DNA from: an uncultured Pseudomonadota bacterium
GTDB lineage: Bacteria; Desulfobacterota; Syntrophorhabdia; Syntrophorhabdales; Syntrophorhabdaceae
Direction of reading: 5' to 3'
DNA length: 47,908 bases
Assembly (NCBI GenBank): GCA_937862865.1
Contig: CALMFJ010000110.1
Span: forward strand, 1 to 47,908
A program made the position numbers and the translations under genes. Positions 797 through 32,709 of this stretch are shown piece after piece (within the stretch, counting starts at the first letter, position 1; each line of letters begins with the position of its first letter). Under the pieces are notes generated by a model, which saw only the letters and a program-made list of their open reading frames with translations, was not told the origin of the DNA and ran no database searches.

Positions 797-1900
797 GTGA
801 AAGACGAACAGTACATGCGCATGGCCCTTTCGCTCGCCCGCAAAGGGATAGGCACGGCATCGCCGAACCCGATGGTCGGCGCGGTCCTGGTGACGGATAA
901 CGCCATTGTCGGGAAGGGGTACCACAAAAAGGCCGGGTCTCCCCATGCGGAGGCCAACGCCATCGAGGATGCAGGGCCAAAGACGGCGGGGTCGACGCTT
1001 TATATCAATCTCGAGCCCTGCGTTCACCACGGCAGGACACCCCCGTGCGCAGACCGGGTAATAGCGGCAGGGATCAAGCGGGTTTTCGTGGCAATGCTCG
1101 ACCCTAACCCGCTTGTCAACGGCAAGGGTGTCGAAATGCTCCGCAAGGCGGGGATCGATGTGAAGGTCGGCTTGCTCGAAAACGAGGCACGCCGTCTCAA
1201 CGAGGCTTTTATCGGCTGGATGGAAAAGAAACGGCCGTACATTACAATGAAGGCCGCAGTGAGCCTGGACGGCAAGATAGCTACAAAAACATGCGACTCG
1301 CGCTGGATATCCAACGAAGAGTCGCGGCGCCAGGCAAATATCCTGCGTGTTGTCAATGACGGGATAATGGTGGGCATCAACACCGTCATATCCGACAATC
1401 CGCTTCTCCTGCCGAGGCTCAAGAACCCGCGCAAAATACCGACGCGGATCATTCTCGACTCGAAGCTCCGGATCCCCCTTGCATGTGATGTTGTCAAGAC
1501 GTCCGAAAAGTACAGGACATGGATCTTCACGAACGAAGATTCACGCACGGACAAGGAGGCAAGGCTCAAGGCCCTGGGGGTGGACGTCATCCGGGTCCCG
1601 AAGGACGATTCCGGCAGGGTGTCGGTCACTCACATATGCCAGGAGCTCTACAAGCGCGACATCATGAGCGTCCTCGTGGAGGGCGGCGGCGAGGTGAACA
1701 GCACCTTGCTTAAGGAAGGGCTTGTCGACAAAGTCGTGCTTTTTTACGGGACCATCCTGATCGGGGGGAAATCGGCGCTCAACCTCGTCGGGGGGAAAGG
1801 GATCGATTTCCTGAAGGACGCGTACAGGATCGACATCGCAACGCTGAGAAGGCTCAAAGAGAACATCTACATGGAAGGGTATGTTCACAGGAATCATTGA
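797..1900 (+). CDS. ribD: Bifunctional riboflavin biosynthesis protein RibD (deaminase/reductase)
   Basis: The 367-residue protein carries both domains that convert the GTP cyclohydrolase II product to 5-amino-6-ribitylamino-uracil phosphate. The N-terminal deaminase domain shows HAEANAI at about 50-56 and PCVHHGRTPPC at about 75-85 (zinc site). The C-terminal pyrimidine reductase domain starts at about residue 145 (KKRPYITMKAAVSLDGKIA) and includes the VEGGGEVN nucleotide-binding stretch. The GTG at 797 is chosen because family members normally have DEQYM-like residues before the conserved SPNPMVGAV; an ATG at 815 is the alternative. The 3' end overlaps ribE by 20 bases, suggesting translational coupling. 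Confidence 0.96.
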   Translation: MKDEQYMRMALSLARKGIGTASPNPMVGAVLVTDNAIVGKGYHKKAGSPHAEANAIEDAGPKTAGSTLYINLEPCVHHGRTPPCADRVIAAGIKRVFVAMLDPNPLVNGKGVEMLRKAGIDVKVGLLENEARRLNEAFIGWMEKKRPYITMKAAVSLDGKIATKTCDSRWISNEESRRQANILRVVNDGIMVGINTVISDNPLLLPRLKNPRKIPTRIILDSKLRIPLACDVVKTSEKYRTWIFTNEDSRTDKEARLKALGVDVIRVPKDDSGRVSVTHICQELYKRDIMSVLVEGGGEVNSTLLKEGLVDKVVLFYGTILIGGKSALNLVGGKGIDFLKDAYRIDIATLRRLKENIYMEGYVHRNH

Positions 1901-2528
1901 GGACATAGGGACCATCGCCGCGATCGAGAAAAAGAGCGGCAGCTGGGTATTCGTCATAAGGACAGCATTCGAAGCGGGGAGCGTCCGGGAAGGCGATAGT
2001 GTCAGCGTCGACGGGGTCTGCCTGACAGCAACAAAGATCGGCAGCGGGACGTTCGGGGCGGACGCCTCGCTCGAGACCCTCCGGCTTACGACCCTCAGGG
2101 ACAAGGCCGTCGGGCAGAGGGTGAACCTTGAGAGGGCAATGTCGGCTGACGGGCGGTTTGGAGGGCACATAGTCACTGGCCATGTCGACGGGACCGGAAC
2201 GATCTCCGACATACGCAGCGAGGGTGACTCGATACGGATAACTATAGAAATTTCCTCGGATTTAGCGCACCAGATCGTCAGGAAGGGATCGGTCGCCATC
2301 GATGGAATAAGCTTGACAGTCAATGACCAAAGTGATAATAAATTCACGATCAATATTATTCCGTACACCGCTTCGCGAACGACAATTCTTGAAAAGAACC
2401 AGCGGGATAAAATAAATATTGAGACGGATGTCATAGGAAAATACGTGGACAGTTTTCTGAAAAAAAGGGAGGGCAAGAAGCTCGATGTCGATTTTCTCGC
2501 CCGCCATGGATTCATAAAAGGAGAGTAG
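1881..2528 (+). CDS. ribE: Riboflavin synthase (alpha subunit)
   Basis: At 215 residues this is the usual length. It begins with the family signature [11 protein letters not shown] and consists of two tandem lumazine-binding barrels: residues 1-97 with GVCLTA and [13 protein letters not shown] at the junction, and about 98-190 with GISLTV. It dismutates two 6,7-dimethyl-8-ribityllumazine molecules into riboflavin and the RibD/RibBA pathway intermediate. It overlaps the end of ribD and is followed two bases later by ribBA, so the rib genes look like one transcript. No FMN riboswitch is visible upstream of ribD, where there is no room for one. Confidence 0.97.
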
Positions 2529-2530
2529 CA

Positions 2531-3736
2531 ATGGCAATCTCGAGCATCGAAGAGGTCCTTCAGGATGTGCGCGAAGGCAAGATGATCATCATTGTCGATG
2601 ATGAGGACAGGGAGAATGAGGGCGATGTCATGATCGCATCTGAAAAGGTGACACCCGAGGCGATCACGTTCATGGCGCGCTATGCGTGCGGCCTCATATG
2701 TCTGTCGCTCACCGAGGAGCGCGTTAAGCAGCTCGACCTCCCTCTTATGGTCCAGGACAACACGTCACCGTACAACACAGCGTTCACCGTTTCGATCGAG
2801 GCAAAGGAAGGGATAACGACCGGCATCTCCGCGTTTGACAGGGCGAGGACCGTTCAGGTCGCCGCCGACCCGAATTCCACGGGGGACGACATAACGCGGC
2901 CCGGACATATCTTCCCGCTTGCCGCCCGCGACGGCGGCGTTCTTGTCAGGGTAGGCCACACGGAGGCGTCCGTCGATCTGGCGCGGCTCGCGGGCCTTAT
3001 CCCGTCGGGCGTCATATGCGAGGTGATGAACGAGGACGGGACGATGGCACGCTTGCCGGACCTGGAGGTCTTTGCCGAAAAACACGGCATGAAGATCGTC
3101 ACCATTGCCGATCTCATCAAGTACAAGACACAGAAGGAAAAACTTGTCCGGCGTGTTGCCGAGACCCGGATACCGACACGGTTCGGCGGCGAGTTCACGC
3201 TCATCGCCTACGAGAACGACATCGACAAGAAGACGCATCTCGCACTCGTCAAAGGTGATATAGGACCGGACGACACGGTGCTCGTGCGCGTCCATTCGGA
3301 ATGCTTCACCGGTGACGTGCTCGGCTCCATGCGGTGCGATTGCGGGGAACAGCTCCAGAAGGCGCTCAAGATGATCGAACACGAGCAGAAAGGCGTTTTC
3401 GTTTACATGCGCCAGGAAGGGCGCGGCATCGGCCTCGCCAACAAGCTCAAAGCCTACAACCTGCAGGATTGCGGCCATGATACGGTCGAGGCGAACATCG
3501 CACTCGGTTTTCAGCCCGACCTGCGCGATTACGGCATCGGGGCCCAGATCCTCAAGGACCTCGGCATACACAAGATGCGCCTCATGACGAACAACCCGAA
3601 GAAGATAAAGGGCCTCGAAGGGTACGGGCTTACCGTCGTGGAACGCGTACCGATCGAGATGGCCCCGACAAAGGACAACATAGCGTATCTCACGACCAAG
3701 CAGAAAAAGCTCGGTCATATCCTAAATAACATATAA
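2531..3736 (+). CDS. ribBA: Bifunctional 3,4-dihydroxy-2-butanone 4-phosphate synthase / GTP cyclohydrolase II
   Basis: The 401-residue fusion protein supplies both precursors of riboflavin. Residues 1-200 are the DHBP synthase domain, with [10 protein letters not shown] (acidic metal and substrate loop), RPGHIFPL and [13 protein letters not shown]. Residues about 205-401 are GTP cyclohydrolase II, with [21 protein letters not shown] (three zinc Cys) and [11 protein letters not shown] (catalytic region). All key motifs are intact in both halves, so both activities are expected. It lies between ribE and ribH with only a few bases on each side. Confidence 0.97.
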
Positions 3737-3745
3737 GGGGTGAAC

Positions 3746-4234
3746 ATGGTGCGAGAGGGCAAGCTCAATGCGAAAGGCTTCAGGTTTGCAATCGTCGTAG
3801 GCAGGTTCAACAGCTTCATCACGGACCGGCTGGTGGAAGGCGCACTCGATGCCCTGAAACGGCACGGTGCCGACGATAACAAGGTCGACATATACCGGGT
3901 CCCCGGCTCCTTCGAGATCCCGCTCGCCGCGAAACTGGTCGCGAGGAAAAAGGAGATAGACGCGGTCATCTGCCTGGGTGCAGTCATCAAGGGCGCCACG
4001 CCGCATTTTCACTATGTCGCGTCCGAGGTCACCAAAGGCATAGCCCAGTCATCCCTTGAACTGGGAAAACCGATGGCCTTCGGTATAATAACGAGCGACA
4101 GCATCGAACAGGCCATCGAGAGGGCGGGCACGAAGGCCGGCAACAAGGGCTACGACGCCGCCATGTCCGCCATAGAAATGGTGAACCTCATCAAGGAAAA
4201 CAACTTGTGCGCAGAAGGAAAGCGAGAGAGCTAG
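3746..4234 (+). CDS. ribH: 6,7-dimethyl-8-ribityllumazine synthase
   Basis: This lumazine synthase of 162 residues condenses the RibBA and RibD-pathway products. Visible motifs are [17 protein letters not shown] (substrate loop) and [17 protein letters not shown] with the catalytic His. The ATG at 3746 is preferred because AAGGGG (3735-3740) sits five bases upstream; a GTG at 3740 is also in frame but would lie inside that ribosome-binding site. The 3' end overlaps nusB by 28 bases. Confidence 0.95.
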
Positions 4235-4629
4235 CCCTGAGGATGCTCTACCAGGTGGAGACACACGGGGAAGACCGCCTCGAGGCCCTCACCAAGTATT
4301 GCTCGCTGTTCCCGTACCAGGAAGATATTGCAGATTATGCCCGGTATCTCCTTACCGGGATTGGCACCCATCAGGAAAAGATAGACGAATTCATCCGGCA
4401 GGCCTGCGAACACTGGCGGATCGACCGGATCGCCTACGTGGATAAGAACGTCCTCAGGATAGGGATATTCGAAATGATATTCTCAGTGGACGTCCCGCCA
4501 AAGGTCGCCATCGACGAAGCCATAGAAATGGGAAAGAAGTACGGGAGCGAAGACTCCCGCGAGTTCATTAACGGAGTGTTGGATCGGATACTCAAGGATC
4601 ATTATAAAGAAAAGCCGGCTGACGGCTAA
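4207..4629 (+). CDS. nusB: Transcription antitermination factor NusB
   Basis: This 140-residue all-helical protein starts with the family signature [14 protein letters not shown] and ends with a conserved [14 protein letters not shown]...FINGVLDRI stretch. NusB binds boxA RNA with NusE and helps transcribe rRNA operons. The GTG start at 4207 lies inside the ribH 3' end, and a ribH-nusB pairing is very common in bacteria. The stop codon (4627-4629) and final residues lie in a heptad repeat array. Confidence 0.95.
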
Positions 4630-4690
4630 CGGCAAAAGGCAAAAGGAATGAATCCGTTTGCCCTTAGCCCTTAGCCCTTAGCCGTTTCCC
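4616..4690. repeat. Heptad repeat inverted pair at the nusB 3' end
   Basis: The left arm, 4616-4646, reads as heptads CGGCTGA, CGGCTAA, CGGCAAA, AGGCAAA. The right arm, about 4653-4690, reads as GCCCTTA three times followed by GCCGTTT. The arms are imperfect reverse complements with a short spacer and could form a long hairpin. The nusB TAA (4627-4629) is inside the second left heptad, and the next gene starts at 4692 immediately after the right arm. Confidence 0.75.
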
Positions 4691-4691
4691 T

Positions 4692-5192
4692 ATGCTTATC
4701 GTTATCGACGGATATAATTATGTTCACCGTGTCAACGGGCCGGCGGTCCGGAAAGGGGCGTCGATGGACCTGCTTCAGCGGGACTTCCTGGAAAAATGCG
4801 CGCGGTACAAGAAGGCGCGGTCGGCCCGGATAACGGTCGTCTTTGACGCGTACGCGAGTTTTTCACCGGGACGGCATTCGGAGAATTTCCGGGGCATCGA
4901 TGTCGTCTATTCGAAAGAGGGTGAAACGGCCGACGACGTCATCATCGGGTGGATAAGGAAAAGGCCGGCCGGCCTCATTGTGGTCAGTTCGGACCGTGCG
5001 ATCATCGACGAGGCGAAACTGCGGGGCGTGTCCTTCCTGACGCCGGTAGCATTCGCTGAAATGCTCTCCTCGCCCGCATACGAACCCGATGAAGAGGACG
5101 ACTACCCCGACACCCCCCGCCCCAAAAAGGGAAACCCCCGCAAGCTTCCGAAGAAAGTCCGGAAGGCGGTGAAGGGGATCGGCAAGCTGTAA
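4692..5192 (+). CDS. NYN-domain (YacP/Rae1-like) RNA endonuclease family protein
   Basis: The 166-residue protein belongs to the YacP/DUF901 branch of the PIN-like NYN nucleases. It begins MLIVIDGYNYVHRV with the first metal-binding Asp, followed by ITVVFDAYAS, GETADDVIIGWI and IVVSSDRAIIDEA, which carry the remaining acidic residues. In Bacillus the homologue Rae1 cleaves mRNA in the ribosomal A site; whether this copy does so is unknown. The C-terminus is a basic tail rich in Lys/Arg/Pro (about 137-166), plausible for RNA binding. It follows nusB directly after the heptad hairpin. Confidence 0.85.
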   Translation: MLIVIDGYNYVHRVNGPAVRKGASMDLLQRDFLEKCARYKKARSARITVVFDAYASFSPGRHSENFRGIDVVYSKEGETADDVIIGWIRKRPAGLIVVSSDRAIIDEAKLRGVSFLTPVAFAEMLSSPAYEPDEEDDYPDTPRPKKGNPRKLPKKVRKAVKGIGKL

Positions 5193-27467: not shown

Positions 27468-28175
27468 TCATTCCTCTTCGTATGCGTCCTGGGCCATCTG
27501 CTTTTCGCAGAGTTCAATATACTTGATGATGGTCTTCGCCGCCTCTTCGGACAGGACCGAGAATTCTGCGCCGACCCTCGTCAAGTCCATGAGATGGATA
27601 ACGCTTTTTATGACGGCCCCGGCGGAAAGGTTGTTTACCCGGGGAATGGTTATGACGAGATCGACCTGGTCCCCGGATTTGAAATGTGTCACATACTCGG
27701 TCAGCATAAAGGCTATGCCGCCCTCCGAGATGTCGACCGGCTCCACGTCTATGACGTTCGAATTCGATATGAACACCCGTACCGCAACGGGGTGCATTTC
27801 AGGTGGTTTTATGCGAACATGCTGGCGCCTTTCCCTTTTCGTTATCGTTGTGGGAAGACTCAACGTCAGGCGCATGCGCCGTTTCGGGGTAATATCGATA
27901 GACACCATCGCGGTGCTGAATTTGTAGAGTGAAAACTCCCCGGCAAACGTGACGTCGGCATGGCCGGTCTCGGGGTATTCGCCGGACGTGAGGCAGGTAT
28001 CGAGAACGATGTCCGAGCTTCCTTTCTTTGAACAGATCTTGCAGTCCTTGAGCGTTATCGTTCCGTCGATGACGACGCGTGCGGTCAGGTTATCCCGGAT
28101 GATCTCATCGAGGTACCTGTTCACATGGTGTTTGTCCCTGAGGACGATCAGGCTCTTTTTTTCCGAAGAACTCAT
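27468..28175 (-). CDS. PilZ-domain protein (c-di-GMP effector type)
   Basis: The 235-residue protein has an N-terminal YcgR-like domain (about 1-95, with a KDCKICSKKG Cys pair at about 43-50) and a C-terminal PilZ domain beginning with the c-di-GMP-binding RRQHVRI (RxxxR) at about 116-121, followed by VDISEGGIAF, the (D/N)xSxxG motif. Both nucleotide-binding motifs are present, so c-di-GMP binding is likely. It probably controls motility or surface attachment; no flagellar or pilus gene is adjacent. Confidence 0.87.
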   Translation of the reverse strand: MSSSEKKSLIVLRDKHHVNRYLDEIIRDNLTARVVIDGTITLKDCKICSKKGSSDIVLDTCLTSGEYPETGHADVTFAGEFSLYKFSTAMVSIDITPKRRMRLTLSLPTTITKRERRQHVRIKPPEMHPVAVRVFISNSNVIDVEPVDISEGGIAFMLTEYVTHFKSGDQVDLVITIPRVNNLSAGAVIKSVIHLMDLTRVGAEFSVLSEEAAKTIIKYIELCEKQMAQDAYEEE

Positions 28176-28234
28176 ACCTTATTATTTTATCATTTTTCAC
28201 CAATTCGATATCATTTACAAGAGGAAAGTGAAAT

Positions 28235-28263
28235 TTGACATTGAGCGGGCCTTTGTCTAGGAT
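28235..28263 (+). promoter_or_regulatory. Candidate promoter for the phospholipase D-like gene
   Basis: A perfect TTGACA (28235-28240) and TAGGAT (28258-28263) are separated by 17 bases. The ATG at 28276 would be only about six bases from the predicted transcription start, and no Shine-Dalgarno is present. Confidence 0.5.
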
Positions 28264-28275
28264 TATGAGCAATAT

Positions 28276-28812
28276 ATGAAGAAGCAGTATTTTTGGCTTT
28301 TTGCCCTCATATTGTTTGCCCTGCCTGTCGCAGCCGCCGGCGCGGGCCAGGACAGGAGCGCGGCCATCGACCTGTGCTTCACCCCGGGCGGTACGTGCAC
28401 GGACAGGATAATAAACGAGATCAACGCGGCGCGGTCCGAGATACTGGTGCAGGCATACTCGTTCACCTCCGCCGGGATCGGCAAGGCATTGATCAATGCG
28501 CACAAACGGGGCGTCAAGGTGGAGGCGATCCTCGACAGGAGCCAGCGCACGGCAAAATACTCATGGGCCACGTTCCTGGCGAACATGAGGATACCCACCT
28601 ACATAGACTCCCAGCATGCCATAGCACACAATAAGGTTATCATCATCGACGCGTTCACAACGATAACCGGTTCTTTCAATTTCACGAAGGCCGCTCAGGA
28701 AAAGAACGCCGAGAACCTGCTTATCATCCGGTCACGAGAGATAGCGAAGGCATACCGCGAGAACTGGTTGGAGCACCGGAAGCACTCGGAAAAGTACGAA
28801 GCGAGATACTAG
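28276..28812 (+). CDS. Secreted phospholipase D-like nuclease (Nuc family)
   Basis: This 178-residue protein has one PLD domain, the size of the small endonuclease Nuc. A Sec signal peptide (MKKQYFWLFALILFALPVAAAGA, about 1-23) directs it out of the cytoplasm. The catalytic HKD motif is HNKVIIIDAFTTITGSFNFT at about 119-138 (His, Lys, Asp, then GSFNFT). Single-HKD proteins dimerise to form one active site. It could be a periplasmic nuclease or phosphodiesterase. It is divergent from the PilZ gene and followed by the hydrogenase promoter. Confidence 0.87.
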   Translation: MKKQYFWLFALILFALPVAAAGAGQDRSAAIDLCFTPGGTCTDRIINEINAARSEILVQAYSFTSAGIGKALINAHKRGVKVEAILDRSQRTAKYSWATFLANMRIPTYIDSQHAIAHNKVIIIDAFTTITGSFNFTKAAQEKNAENLLIIRSREIAKAYRENWLEHRKHSEKYEARY

Positions 28813-29016: not shown

Positions 29017-32000
29017 ATGGCAAGAATCACTATAGACAATCACACGTGCACGGTGCGTGACGGGAGCACGGTCATCGATGCGGCGCGGGAGAACGGGATT
29101 GACATACCGACCCTGGGGTATGACCCGAGAGTGAGCCCCCCGACCAACGTCGAGATATCCATGGTCGAGATCATCGATAATGGAAAGTCGCACATACTAT
29201 CGGCAACCGGCACCGTCGTTTCCGACGGGATGACAATCATAACACGGTCGCCTGCGCTCGAAAGCTTCAGGAAGATCTATCTCCAGGCACTCTTGAGGAA
29301 CCATTATGGGGACTGCGAAGCCCCGTGCGTTACCCGGTGCCCCGCTCATATCGATATACAGAAATACCTTTATCACGTCGCGAACGGGAATTTTGTCGAG
29401 GCCCTGCGCGTCATCAAGGAGAACAACCCGTTCCCTTCTGTCTGCGGCCGCGTCTGCCCTCATCCGTGCGAGGCCGAATGCCGGAGGAACGCGGTGGATG
29501 CCCCGGTCAATATCAACGGGGTGAAAAGGTTCATCGGGGATTTTGACAGTTACCAGGCCGTCGAATATACACCGCGGACCATGCCGGATACCGGGAAGAT
29601 GGTTGCGGTGATCGGTGCGGGGCCGGCCGGCCTCACATGCGCCTATTTCCTGAAATGCCTCGGGCACCGGGTGACCGTGTTCGAAAGACAGGAAGCTGCC
29701 GGCGGAATGCTCAGGTGGGGCATCCCCTATTACCGTCTGCCGGAGGACATCCTTGAACGGGAGATCCGGGCGGTGCTCAACCTGGATATCGATATCCGCT
29801 ACCAGAAAGAGCTGGGCAAGGATTTCACGATCCAATCGCTGAAAAGGGACGGTTACGACGCGATATTCCTGGGAATAGGGGCCCAGAAATCATCCCGGAT
29901 GGCCATCCCCGGCGAGGACACCCCGGGCGTCATGACAGGGCTCGATCTTCTCGCGCGCTGCGCCCGGAACGAAAGGCCTGACCTCGGGGACGATGTCGTT
30001 GTGTTCGGAGGGGGCAACACGGCCATGGACGCCGCGCGCAGTGCGATCCGTCTCGGCTCCCGGAACGTGACCGTAGCCTACCGCCGGACCCGCAAAGAGA
30101 TGCCCGCCGAAGACGTCGAGATAGAAGAGGCGATAGAAGAAGGCGCGAAGATGATGTATCTGACCGCTCCAAAGACGATAACCGGCGAGAACGGTGCAAT
30201 AAAGCTCATTTGCATGAAAATGGAGCTCGGGGAGCCGGATGCGAGCGGCAGGCGCCGGCCGGTGCCCGTCGAGGGAGCCGACTTCATCCTTCCGTGTACG
30301 ACAATAGTCAGCGCCATCGGCCAGATCGTCGACAACGACTGTATAGCCCGCGACGACCTGACGACAAAACACGGGACGATCCTCGTGTCGAACACCATGG
30401 AAACATCCATACCCGGCGTCTTCTCCGGGGGGGATTGCGTGAGCGGGCCGGATATCGCGATCAATGCGATCGGCGCGGGGAAAAAGGCTGCGTACGAGAT
30501 AGACGAGTACCTCCGGACGGGAAAGTCCGTTCCCGACGTCGAACCGTACAATTGTTCCAAGGGGCGCTGGGATGAGATATCGCCGGACGAGTTCAGGTCC
30601 GTCGTCCCGTCGGAGCGTAATGAGATACCCGTACTCGACCCTGGCACGAGGAAAACGGGCTTTGAGGAATGCACAAGGACGTGGGATGGCGAAACCGCCA
30701 TGCAGGAGGCGGCGCGCTGTCTCGCCTGCGGGTGCATCGAACGCTACGGCTGCACCTTGAGGCGCCACGCAAGCGATTACCAGGTAGAATCAGACGGGCC
30801 GGCGCCGGCCCGCATTCTCCCCGTCGACGATAATCACCCCTTCATCGTGCGCGATCCCGGCAAATGCATCCTGTGCGGCCTGTGCCTCAAGGTTTGCCGC
30901 GAAATGGAAGGGTCGTCAGCCCTGTCATTCTACGAAACGGACAATGTCCTGACGATAGGGCCGAACGACCATCGCCCGCTCGATATGACGGTGTGTGTTG
31001 CATGCGGCCACTGCGCAACGGCATGCCCCACGGGGGCACTCTCCTTCAAACCTGTGATACCGACGATCTATCGCGTCCTGCACGATCCCAATATTATCGT
31101 CGTCGCACAGATCGCCCCGGCTGTCCGCGCAACGTTCGGACAGCACTACGGCCTCGAGCCGAGCACGGTCATGTCCGTCCTGGCGGCCGGGCTCAAGGAA
31201 GTGGGATTCAACTTCGTGTTCGACACATGCTGGGCGGCGGACCTCACCATCATGGAAGAGGGCACGGAATTTCTGAGCCGTATCGCGGAGCAGGGCGTCC
31301 TTCCCCAGATCACATCGTGTTGTCCCGCATGGGTGAACTATTGTGAAAAGATGGCGCCCGATATCCTCCCGCATCTTTCATCATGCCGGTCACCCCAGCA
31401 AATGTTCGGTTCCGTCATGAAGCATTATTTCGCCGGGCAGATGAAGGTCCCCCCCGAGAGGCTCTTCTTCGTTTCCATCATGCCGTGCAACGCAAAGAAG
31501 TATGAAGCGCGCCGTCCCGAATTCAACCGGGCCGGGATCGCCGACGTCGACGCCGTCCTGACGACGACAGAAGTGATCAAGATGTTCGAAGAACGGGGGA
31601 TGGACCCCCGGCTCTTCAATCCCGTCCCCGTGGATGCCTTCTTCGGGAAGGTGAGCGGCGCCGGCATCATTTTCGGGGCCTCGGGCGGCGTGGCGGAGGC
31701 CGCCTTAAGGCTCGCCGCCGAGCGCGTCATGGGAAAGAGAATGGAAAGCTTCACCTACGAGCAGGTCCGGGGACTGAACGGCGTCAAGGAAACCACGATC
31801 AGCCTTGGCGAAACGAAGGTGCGCCTTGCCGTCGTCAGCGGGCTCCAGAATGCGCAGGACCTGATAGACAGGATGCGGGCCGGGGATGCCCCGTATGATC
31901 TCATCGAGGTCATGGCCTGCCCGGGAGGGTGCATCAACGGGTCCGGGAACCCGGCCCCCAAGCTGACAAGCGACCCTGAAGACAGGCTCGAGGTCCTCTA

Positions 32001-32445
32001 CCGGCTTGACGAGATCGCGCCCATCAAGAAAAGCCAGGACAACCCGACCATACAGGCGATCTACACGAACTGGCTCGGAAAACCCGACGGGACCCTCTCT
32101 CACCATAACCTGCACACGACATACCGCCGCCGCTCGATGCGCCTGCAGGAATCCGTTGAAGAGCTGCTCCGGGACAATCAGCCAATCGATGTCGGCGTCT
32201 GCCTCGGGACAAGCTGCTACCTCAAGGGTTCGTTCCACCTTCTCGAAGGGCTTTCCGCCGAGCTGAAAAAACGCGGGCTCCTCGAAAAGTTCAGGATAAA
32301 GGCGCGCTTCTGCACGGACCAGTGCGCCGGCGGGCCGAATGTCGTCGTGGGCACGAGCGTCATCAACCAGGTCGACCCTGACGACCCGGTCGCCTTCGTG
32401 GAAAGCCACCTCCTGCCCGCCCTGAAGTTAATAGAAGGCGCATAA
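29017..32445 (+). CDS. Multidomain NAD(P)H-linked [FeFe] hydrogenase (GltD-HydA fusion)
   Basis: The 1142-residue protein joins several modules. Residues 1-80: a NuoG-type ferredoxin fold that lacks its four Cys. About 96-165: a Cys-rich GltD-like N-domain (C100, C104, C108 and SVCGRVCPHPCEAEC). About 190-520: an FAD/NAD(P)H oxidoreductase (GAGPAGL near 199, GGGNTAMDAAR near 331). C617-C627 and C660-C670: two [4Fe-4S] sites. About 690-1010: the H-cluster domain, with TSCCPAW (766-772), MPCNAKKYE (from 822) and EVMACPGGC (964-972), so C769, C824, C968 and C972 are expected ligands. About 1050-1142: a NuoE/thioredoxin-like [2Fe-2S] tail (C1062, C1067, C1099, C1103). It should be a cytoplasmic enzyme that couples NAD(P)H to H2, possibly by bifurcation. 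No maturase gene is nearby. Confidence 0.93.
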   Translation: MARITIDNHTCTVRDGSTVIDAARENGIDIPTLGYDPRVSPPTNVEISMVEIIDNGKSHILSATGTVVSDGMTIITRSPALESFRKIYLQALLRNHYGDCEAPCVTRCPAHIDIQKYLYHVANGNFVEALRVIKENNPFPSVCGRVCPHPCEAECRRNAVDAPVNINGVKRFIGDFDSYQAVEYTPRTMPDTGKMVAVIGAGPAGLTCAYFLKCLGHRVTVFERQEAAGGMLRWGIPYYRLPEDILEREIRAVLNLDIDIRYQKELGKDFTIQSLKRDGYDAIFLGIGAQKSSRMAIPGEDTPGVMTGLDLLARCARNERPDLGDDVVVFGGGNTAMDAARSAIRLGSRNVTVAYRRTRKEMPAEDVEIEEAIEEGAKMMYLTAPKTITGENGAIKLICMKMELGEPDASGRRRPVPVEGADFILPCTTIVSAIGQIVDNDCIARDDLTTKHGTILVSNTMETSIPGVFSGGDCVSGPDIAINAIGAGKKAAYEIDEYLRTGKSVPDVEPYNCSKGRWDEISPDEFRSVVPSERNEIPVLDPGTRKTGFEECTRTWDGETAMQEAARCLACGCIERYGCTLRRHASDYQVESDGPAPARILPVDDNHPFIVRDPGKCILCGLCLKVCREMEGSSALSFYETDNVLTIGPNDHRPLDMTVCVACGHCATACPTGALSFKPVIPTIYRVLHDPNIIVVAQIAPAVRATFGQHYGLEPSTVMSVLAAGLKEVGFNFVFDTCWAADLTIMEEGTEFLSRIAEQGVLPQITSCCPAWVNYCEKMAPDILPHLSSCRSPQQMFGSVMKHYFAGQMKVPPERLFFVSIMPCNAKKYEARRPEFNRAGIADVDAVLTTTEVIKMFEERGMDPRLFNPVPVDAFFGKVSGAGIIFGASGGVAEAALRLAAERVMGKRMESFTYEQVRGLNGVKETTISLGETKVRLAVVSGLQNAQDLIDRMRAGDAPYDLIEVMACPGGCINGSGNPAPKLTSDPEDRLEVLYRLDEIAPIKKSQDNPTIQAIYTNWLGKPDGTLSHHNLHTTYRRRSMRLQESVEELLRDNQPIDVGVCLGTSCYLKGSFHLLEGLSAELKKRGLLEKFRIKARFCTDQCAGGPNVVVGTSVINQVDPDDPVAFVESHLLPALKLIEGA

Positions 32446-32454
32446 GGAGCGCTC

Positions 32455-32709
32455 ATGGCAAAGCACACGCACTCATTTGTGGAGACACACGACGGTTTTC
32501 TCGGTTACGGCATGGACCGGCAAACGGACGAAGACACCGTCGCCGTCTACCTCCAGAAATTCTCAGACGACGACCTCATGAAGGTGATGCTGAAGCGCAT
32601 GTCCGACGCCGAACTGGCTGAGGTCTTCGAGATGGTCAGCAAGCTCCTCAAAGTGCACCTCACGGAACCCGAATACCACCGTTATTTCCTGAAAGACGAC
32701 GGGCCATAG
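32455..32709 (+). CDS. Small conserved protein downstream of the hydrogenase
   Basis: This 84-residue soluble, acidic protein begins nine bases after the hydrogenase stop, with AAGGAG upstream of the ATG, so the two are co-transcribed. It resembles, from memory, small cytoplasmic proteins of Geobacter-like bacteria with HSFVETHDGFLGYGMDR, then KFSDDDLMKVMLKRMSDAELAEVFEMVSKLLKVHL (amphipathic helices) and EYHRYFLK. It has no Cys, so it is not a redox carrier. Its function is unknown. The stop codon lies in the left arm of a heptad hairpin. Confidence 0.8.
   Translation: MAKHTHSFVETHDGFLGYGMDRQTDEDTVAVYLQKFSDDDLMKVMLKRMSDAELAEVFEMVSKLLKVHLTEPEYHRYFLKDDGP

Follow-up and report, generated by a model that had tools for sequence, protein, structure and literature searches.

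A predicted single-chain GltD-[FeFe] hydrogenase of Desulfobacterota whose N-terminal ferredoxin domain has lost its four cluster ligands

Here, we describe a gene at positions 29017-32445 (plus strand) of the window, which denotes the whole stretch of 47,908 nucleotides analyzed (contig CALMFJ010000110.1 of assembly GCA_937862865.1, from an uncultured bacterium of the Syntrophorhabdaceae, Desulfobacterota). By sequence, its product is a group A [FeFe] hydrogenase, the N-terminal half of which is built like StnC, and the four cysteines that would bind the N-terminal [2Fe-2S] cluster have been replaced throughout the clade to which it belongs. We consider it probable, although well short of certain, that the protein represents a self-contained, non-bifurcating oxidoreductase of NADP(H) (nicotinamide adenine dinucleotide phosphate) and H2 that lost its partner port.

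The open reading frame (ORF) encodes 1142 amino acids (aa) and starts at ATG 29017 or at a TTG four codons upstream. Its features are listed below, where fusions orthologous to the window protein are called window-type.

29017..32445, plus strand: GltD-inserted [FeFe] hydrogenase, 1142 aa (ORF, domain scans, full-length orthologues)
29017..29301, plus strand: N-terminal beta-grasp ferredoxin domain of the NuoG/HydA type without cluster ligands, aa 1-95 (Pfam Fer2_4, AlphaFold2 (AF2) model, PDB matches)
29116..29118, plus strand: lost ligand 1, Cys to Gly34 (alignment; G in 19/19 window-type sequences)
29149..29151, plus strand: lost ligand 2, Cys to Val45 (alignment; V/F/I/T/A among 19 window-type sequences)
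29158..29160, plus strand: lost ligand 3, Cys to Ser48 (alignment; S/A among 19 window-type sequences)
29206..29208, plus strand: lost ligand 4, Cys to Thr64 (alignment; T in 18 and I in 1 of 19 window-type sequences)
29302..29343, plus strand: HxxxCxxxCxxxCP motif, H96-P109, the N-side junction of the GltD entry into the NuoG/HydA chain (sequence)
29311..30516, plus strand: GltD/NfnB-type module for flavin adenine dinucleotide (FAD) and NADP(H) with its own [4Fe-4S] cysteines, aa 99-500 (Pfam, VIA match)
30718..30753, plus strand: CxxCxC...C motif (C568, C571, C573, C579), the C-side junction and a predicted [4Fe-4S] site at the place of StnC C5 / NuoG N5 (alignment)
30844..31056, plus strand: 2x[4Fe-4S] ferredoxin domain, C617/620/623/627 and C660/663/666/670 (Pfam; cysteines invariant in an alignment of 40 relatives)
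31096..31941, plus strand: H-cluster domain of the group A type with L1 TSCCPAW, L2 MPCNAKK and L3 MACPGGCINGSGNP, the latter continuing to 31953 (Pfam, TIGR model, motifs)
31981..32133, plus strand: Fe_hyd_SSU segment, aa 989-1039 (Pfam)
32185..32427, plus strand: NuoE-like thioredoxin-fold [2Fe-2S] tail with C1062, C1067, C1099 and C1103 (Pfam, invariant cysteines)

The assignment as a hydrogenase rests on the H-cluster domain (Pfam Fe_hyd_lg_C at aa 694-975), which scores 451 bits with TIGR02512 against a cut-off of 406 and thereby falls into group A, and the motifs L1-L3 are intact in 19-20 of the 20 window-type sequences. The HydG maturase is encoded in the same genome. Ahead of this domain lies Fer4_7 (aa 616-674), and behind it the match to 2Fe-2S_thioredx (aa 1057-1124) is marginally below its cut-off; the four tail cysteines are, however, invariant in the window-type alignment and in further orthologues. 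Fer4_20 and Pyr_redox_2 make up the GltD part (aa 100-488), for which a VIA structural match to NfnI (5jca_L) covers 401 residues with a Z of 37. The model PRK12814 (NADPH glutamate synthase small subunit-like) reaches 659 bits and stays below its curated cut-off of 916. At the N-terminus, Fer2_4 (aa 3-78) scores above its cut-off despite the missing ligands. The first-pass annotation, a reading of the sequence alone, had likewise placed the GltD module, the H-cluster and a NuoE-like [2Fe-2S] tail in one chain, and these scans agree. Its count of two [4Fe-4S] sites was too low, since the N-terminal part of GltD holds seven cysteines (C100, 104, 108, 143, 147, 151, 155), all invariant in the aligned orthologues, and C568/C571/C573/C579 are invariant in window-type fusions, with C573 and C579 invariant in 40/40 aligned relatives. 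Judged from these motifs, about five [4Fe-4S] clusters are expected in the chain in addition to the H-cluster and the tail [2Fe-2S] cluster. Furthermore, the fusions, StnC-type proteins and HydA share an invariant H96 and an invariant or almost invariant C100, K170 corresponds to the ligand lysine of StnC, and the GGGNTAMD...YRRT motif of the GltD module matches that of StnC, an NADPH binder.

The N-terminal domain departs from this picture of conserved ligands. In the alignment, G34, V45, S48 and T64 occupy the ligand positions, which bears out the replacement of all four [2Fe-2S] ligands that had been noticed before. The four cysteines are missing in 32/32 orthologous loci of Syntrophus/Smithellaceae-type Desulfobacterota, some of which represent the same protein from two collections. 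Since they are absent in all 32 loci, an assembly error, which had been named as grounds for withdrawing the claim, is rejected as the cause; many assemblies share the loss. The cysteines are retained in all 19 StnC-type proteins compared and in the HydAs having this domain, and no partial-loss intermediate was found among 46 genomes from the class and 51 from family f32, or in two phyla that were sampled at about 400 genomes each. An ordinary ferredoxin domain, with a cluster held by other residues or with cysteines missing through a sequencing or assembly error, would fit the conserved fold and the conserved loop motif YDPRVSPP. Against this stand the agreement among assemblies and the lack of any conserved non-cysteine candidate at the four positions (G; V/F/I/T/A; S/A; T/I). 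The single cysteine conserved in most orthologues, C11, is not part of the site, and some orthologues have Phe in its place, which leaves this explanation scarcely credible.

Full-length orthologues were found, in a search of 99 genomes, in 8 of the 12 members of the genus (the window's own counted) as well as in a second genus of the same family and in a further family within the phylum. The genome collection held 13 orthologous loci from Syntrophus, Smithellaceae and Desulfobacterota-type metagenome-assembled genomes, several of which repeat known proteins, and 13 of the 51 genomes of family f32 carry the Cys-less fusion, one of them in two copies (G880:C150 and G880:C260). With 1173 aa, the orthologue of loci L009 / L031 exceeds the window protein by about 31 aa, and its additional residues fall within the GltD module, around the position that corresponds to aa 307-314 in the window protein.

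The ligand-free domain is under purifying selection and is not junk. Pairwise ratios of nonsynonymous to synonymous substitution rates (dN/dS) for aa 1-95 are 0.06-0.24, commonly 1.5-3 times those of the other domains and far below 1, and the loop that formerly surrounded the cluster, YDPRV-S/T-PP, is nearly invariant among orthologues. An AF2 model of aa 1-103 alone has a predicted local distance difference test (pLDDT) score of 84.6, and its best PDB matches are NuoG-type subunits of complex I, StnC and CpI (Z 10-12). The full-length model matches subunit A of Nfn-ABC (Z 49.3) and StnC (Z 48.0 over 681 residues), and 551 of the 571 residues of Thermoanaerobacter kivui HydA are matched. The N-terminal half (aa 2-678) aligns end to end with subunit A of Nfn-ABC (9bov) and with StnC (8oh5), in each of which the four cysteines are present.

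A second set of single-chain GltD-HydA fusions, termed type-2, is represented by L112 (Desulfobacterota, G288; 1348-4935), of which a further copy is divided between contigs in G246, and by L126 (Bacillota, G785; reverse strand). L112 shares 45% identity with the window protein. In both type-2 fusions, all four N-terminal cysteines are intact and the NuoE-like tail is degenerate. In a tree of the hydrogenase half, window-type and type-2 fusions group together in a single clade with a Shimodaira-Hasegawa-like approximate likelihood ratio test (SH-aLRT) support of 100, and the nearest neighbors are free-standing HydAs, mostly of about 670 aa and mostly with the same NuoE-like tail; the N-half tree supports the same clade with 94, a value open to a long-branch artefact. 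Because the two types form one clade, the ligand loss is derived. The check proposed earlier, whether the loss is clade-wide, thus has a divided outcome: it holds for all window-type loci, whereas the sister clade keeps its cysteines. The loss is no general trait of GltD-HydA fusions; among those compared, it is confined to the window-type clade. The simplest history suggested by these sequences would be one fusion, after which the ancestor of the Desulfobacterota clade of the window lost the N-terminal ligands a single time.

In solved homologues, namely HydABC and complex I, the [2Fe-2S] cluster is an arm of a Y-shaped relay, which reaches the NuoF/HydB flavin subunit. For HydABC of Thermotoga maritima, the path from the H-cluster to the flavin mononucleotide (FMN) of HydB includes the [2Fe-2S] cluster A1, with the His-ligated A4 branching off to the side at the HydA-HydA interface (PMC9499530). 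Following the nomenclature of Feng and Schut, a third substrate can instead deliver its electrons via A3, as in NiFe-Bfu and Thermococcus sibiricus Nfn-Bfu (PMC8880783, PMC9304861), the latter being without A4 and still active (PMC9304861); this A3 is taken to be the N5-type cluster. The insertion signature HxxxCxxxCxxxCP / CxxCxC...C has already been described for StnC (PMC7483475).

In the window protein, the GltD/NfnB module sits in the HydA chain where NuoG carries its N5 cluster, as in StnC. Due to this N5-type site (H96/C100, C568-C579), a continuous route from NADPH to the H-cluster can be drawn on paper. NADPH would reduce the FAD in GltD, from which electrons would pass over the GltD [4Fe-4S] clusters to the C568-C579 cluster and further over the ferredoxin-domain clusters to the H-cluster, or the whole route would be reversed. 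The N-terminal [2Fe-2S] arm would be needed only for contact with a NuoF/HydB subunit; with electron entry inside the chain and no HydB-type partner, this arm would become useless, its four ligands would be lost once, and the ferredoxin fold would be retained for structure or packing. NADP(H) is the most likely pyridine nucleotide because the GltD module, of the StnC/NfnB type, is similar to that of StnC. We infer this specificity, the electron route, catalysis and the absence of a partner. The earlier suggestion of a complete single-chain NAD(P)H-H2 enzyme is therefore the best reading, sharpened to NADP(H), and its completeness is a prediction. That electron routing must differ from NuoG-type hydrogenases is right as far as the partner port is concerned, which has been lost, but the path from the GltD insertion point to the H-cluster need not use the [2Fe-2S] branch.

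Taken further, the window-type fusions may constitute a class of one-subunit NADP(H)-H2 enzymes, in which the Y-shaped relay has been pruned to a straight wire: the HydB port would be gone, the fold would persist as a scaffold, and electrons would enter via the in-chain GltD at the N5-type cluster. Relatives would have lost opposite arms, namely the ferredoxin-domain cluster in T. sibiricus NfnA and the tail cluster in type-2 fusions. For this wider proposal, we regard the chances as evenly balanced. The T. sibiricus chain lacks the ferredoxin-domain cysteines in the alignment, which amounts to a mirror-image pruning. It was rejected as a precedent for the loss in the window protein: the paper gives 'A4' as missing, and the cysteines found missing belong to a different cluster.

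Several observations weigh against a self-contained enzyme. The path in StnC is stated as C7-C6-C5-C4-C3 with C4 as the [2Fe-2S] cluster (PMC10482914), and should this cluster indeed be situated between C5 and the ferredoxin-domain clusters, the wire could be broken without it. In that case, the GltD and hydrogenase halves would no longer be coupled, and what remained would be a single chain with a diaphorase and a ferredoxin-type hydrogenase, or a decaying enzyme. Such a cut follows from the published order if taken literally and would also suit the faster evolution of the ferredoxin domain. However, the N5-type cluster adjoins the ferredoxin-domain cluster in HydA and complex I (PMC9499530), none of the remaining cofactor ligands varies, all domains of the chain show dN/dS values far below 1, and several genera have retained the gene, so that we give an uncoupled chain a slim chance.

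The full-length model, in addition, has a moderate pLDDT of 77.8 with the loop 35-46 below 50, and the intact [2Fe-2S] motif of the tail suggests another redox contact. The N-terminal port may have been swapped rather than dispensed with, the tail [2Fe-2S] cluster now serving to contact a further carrier, either ferredoxin or a NuoE-like protein of about 100 aa whose gene lies downstream in Smithellaceae-type genomes. The enzyme would then have two inputs and would not simply couple NADPH to H2. The invariant tail cysteines of window-type fusions would agree with this, as would the opposite state of type-2 fusions, although the contrast rests on two clades only. Outside the genus of the window, in L010, L033-L040 and L043, the fusion is followed by the NuoE-like ORF as well as by a sensor hydrogenase of the HydS type that contains PAS; this downstream NuoE-like ORF is, however, missing in the genus of the window, and the C-terminal domain of T. 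maritima HydA is flexible and works via the HydB bridge (PMC9499530). Altogether, a swapped port appears unlikely, but deserves to be kept in mind.

The partner genes also bear on a self-contained enzyme. Type-2 fusions keep their cysteines without adjacent HydB/HydC (none at the type-2 loci L116 and L134, read by eye from ORF starts), which means that a lone enzyme need not lose them. Furthermore, other parts of the genome code for HydB-type subunits, and these could act in trans: NuoF-family genes are absent from the window contig, and five are present on other contigs, three of these on contig C13 adjoining HydA genes. The fusion might thus serve HydB/HydC of another operon as the BfuA-type subunit of a bifurcating complex (NADPH, NADH/ferredoxin, H2), as StnC-type chains do with StnAB (PMC10482914). 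This is quite unlikely in our view, since the [2Fe-2S] cluster by which HydA reaches HydB has been lost and no hydBC was observed next to the fusion gene in the window, in the genus loci L118, L119 and L121 (ORF starts read by eye) or in type-2 loci. A self-contained NADP(H):H2 oxidoreductase remains the reading that we prefer.

On C13 of the same genome (G000:C13:8239-9954), a NuoF/HydB-family protein of 1022 aa with a GltD domain lies beside the HydA genes; it is comparable to the enlarged HydB reported for Vallitalea guaymasensis (PMC6163223). Upstream of the hydrogenase, PilZ-like and phospholipase D-like genes occupy window positions 27468-28812, and this position is conserved in most genus members. 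At L120 (4254-7147, 11255-12496), a SpoIIE-like phosphatase follows the fusion and a HydF-like GTPase is found upstream, both identified by eye. One further ORF lies just 3' of the hydrogenase, the membership of which in the system is uncertain.

32455..32709, plus strand: 84-aa ORF (conserved, at 80-83%, only in the two closest relatives)

A match of this ORF to Pfam RXLR_WY is sub-threshold and was taken as chance.

The unusual end of the L3 motif, GSGNP, which had been pointed out beforehand, is found in 20/20 window-type enzymes, where relatives have GAGQP, GAGHP or GGGQP. It is a signature of the clade, and was rejected as a functional signal since the variation is specific to the clade.

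If the proposed function is true, a single gene would provide an NADPH-H2 catalyst of use in redox biochemistry and NADPH recycling. The protein would, in addition, represent a NuoG/HydA relay with one arm knocked out by nature and thus a probe of the role of the N-terminal [2Fe-2S] cluster in HydABC, CpI and StnC. For syntrophic Desulfobacterota, in which NADH-dependent hydrogenases are the studied route, a direct NADPH-H2 link would be added to the metabolism.

Among known systems, StnC/Nfn-BfuA (Sporomusa ovata StnABC, 8oh5; Caldicellulosiruptor Nfn-ABC, 9bov; T. sibiricus NfnABC, 9n5u) shows the same order of N-terminal ferredoxin fold, inserted GltD and 2x[4Fe-4S] domain, with GltD between the same two motifs, K170 conserved and 39-45% identity over the structurally aligned part. 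In contrast, the C-terminal half of these chains is an inactive formate-dehydrogenase-like domain, where the window protein has what appears from its motifs to be an intact H-cluster hydrogenase. Moreover, 8oh5 and 9bov keep the [2Fe-2S] cysteines and the StnC/Nfn-BfuA chains have StnA/StnB-type partners; the window protein has neither these cysteines nor such partner genes beside it. HydA of HydABC and CpI-type group A enzymes (8a6t, 7p5h, 1feh) share the H-cluster motifs, the ferredoxin clusters, the SSU segment and the placement of the ferredoxin fold, but have no GltD insert and possess the four cysteines, and HydA of HydABC pairs with HydB/HydC. The window protein likewise stands apart from the HydABC (A3)/Bfu type 1 group, lacking a NuoF/HydB gene in its operon and the ligands of A1. 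Type-2 fusions have the same full architecture and differ by their kept N-terminal and degenerate tail cysteines.

The putative glutamate synthase-linked group A2 of HydDB also links GltD to a group A hydrogenase, with the GltD-type domain in a protein encoded immediately downstream (PMC5037454). In the window, GltD is in the chain and the next gene is the 84-aa ORF, so that the A2 label was rejected for want of its defining downstream GltD gene. No published description of a GltD-HydA single chain was found in the open-access literature, a scope outside which most subscription papers lie. As functional analogues, direct coupling of pyridine nucleotide and H2 has been proposed for the single-chain fused NADH hydrogenase of Nyctotherus ovalis (PMC2216082) and shown, in a non-bifurcating form, for HydAB of Syntrophus aciditrophicus (PMC7311640); both, however, use NuoE/NuoF-type modules and NADH instead of GltD.

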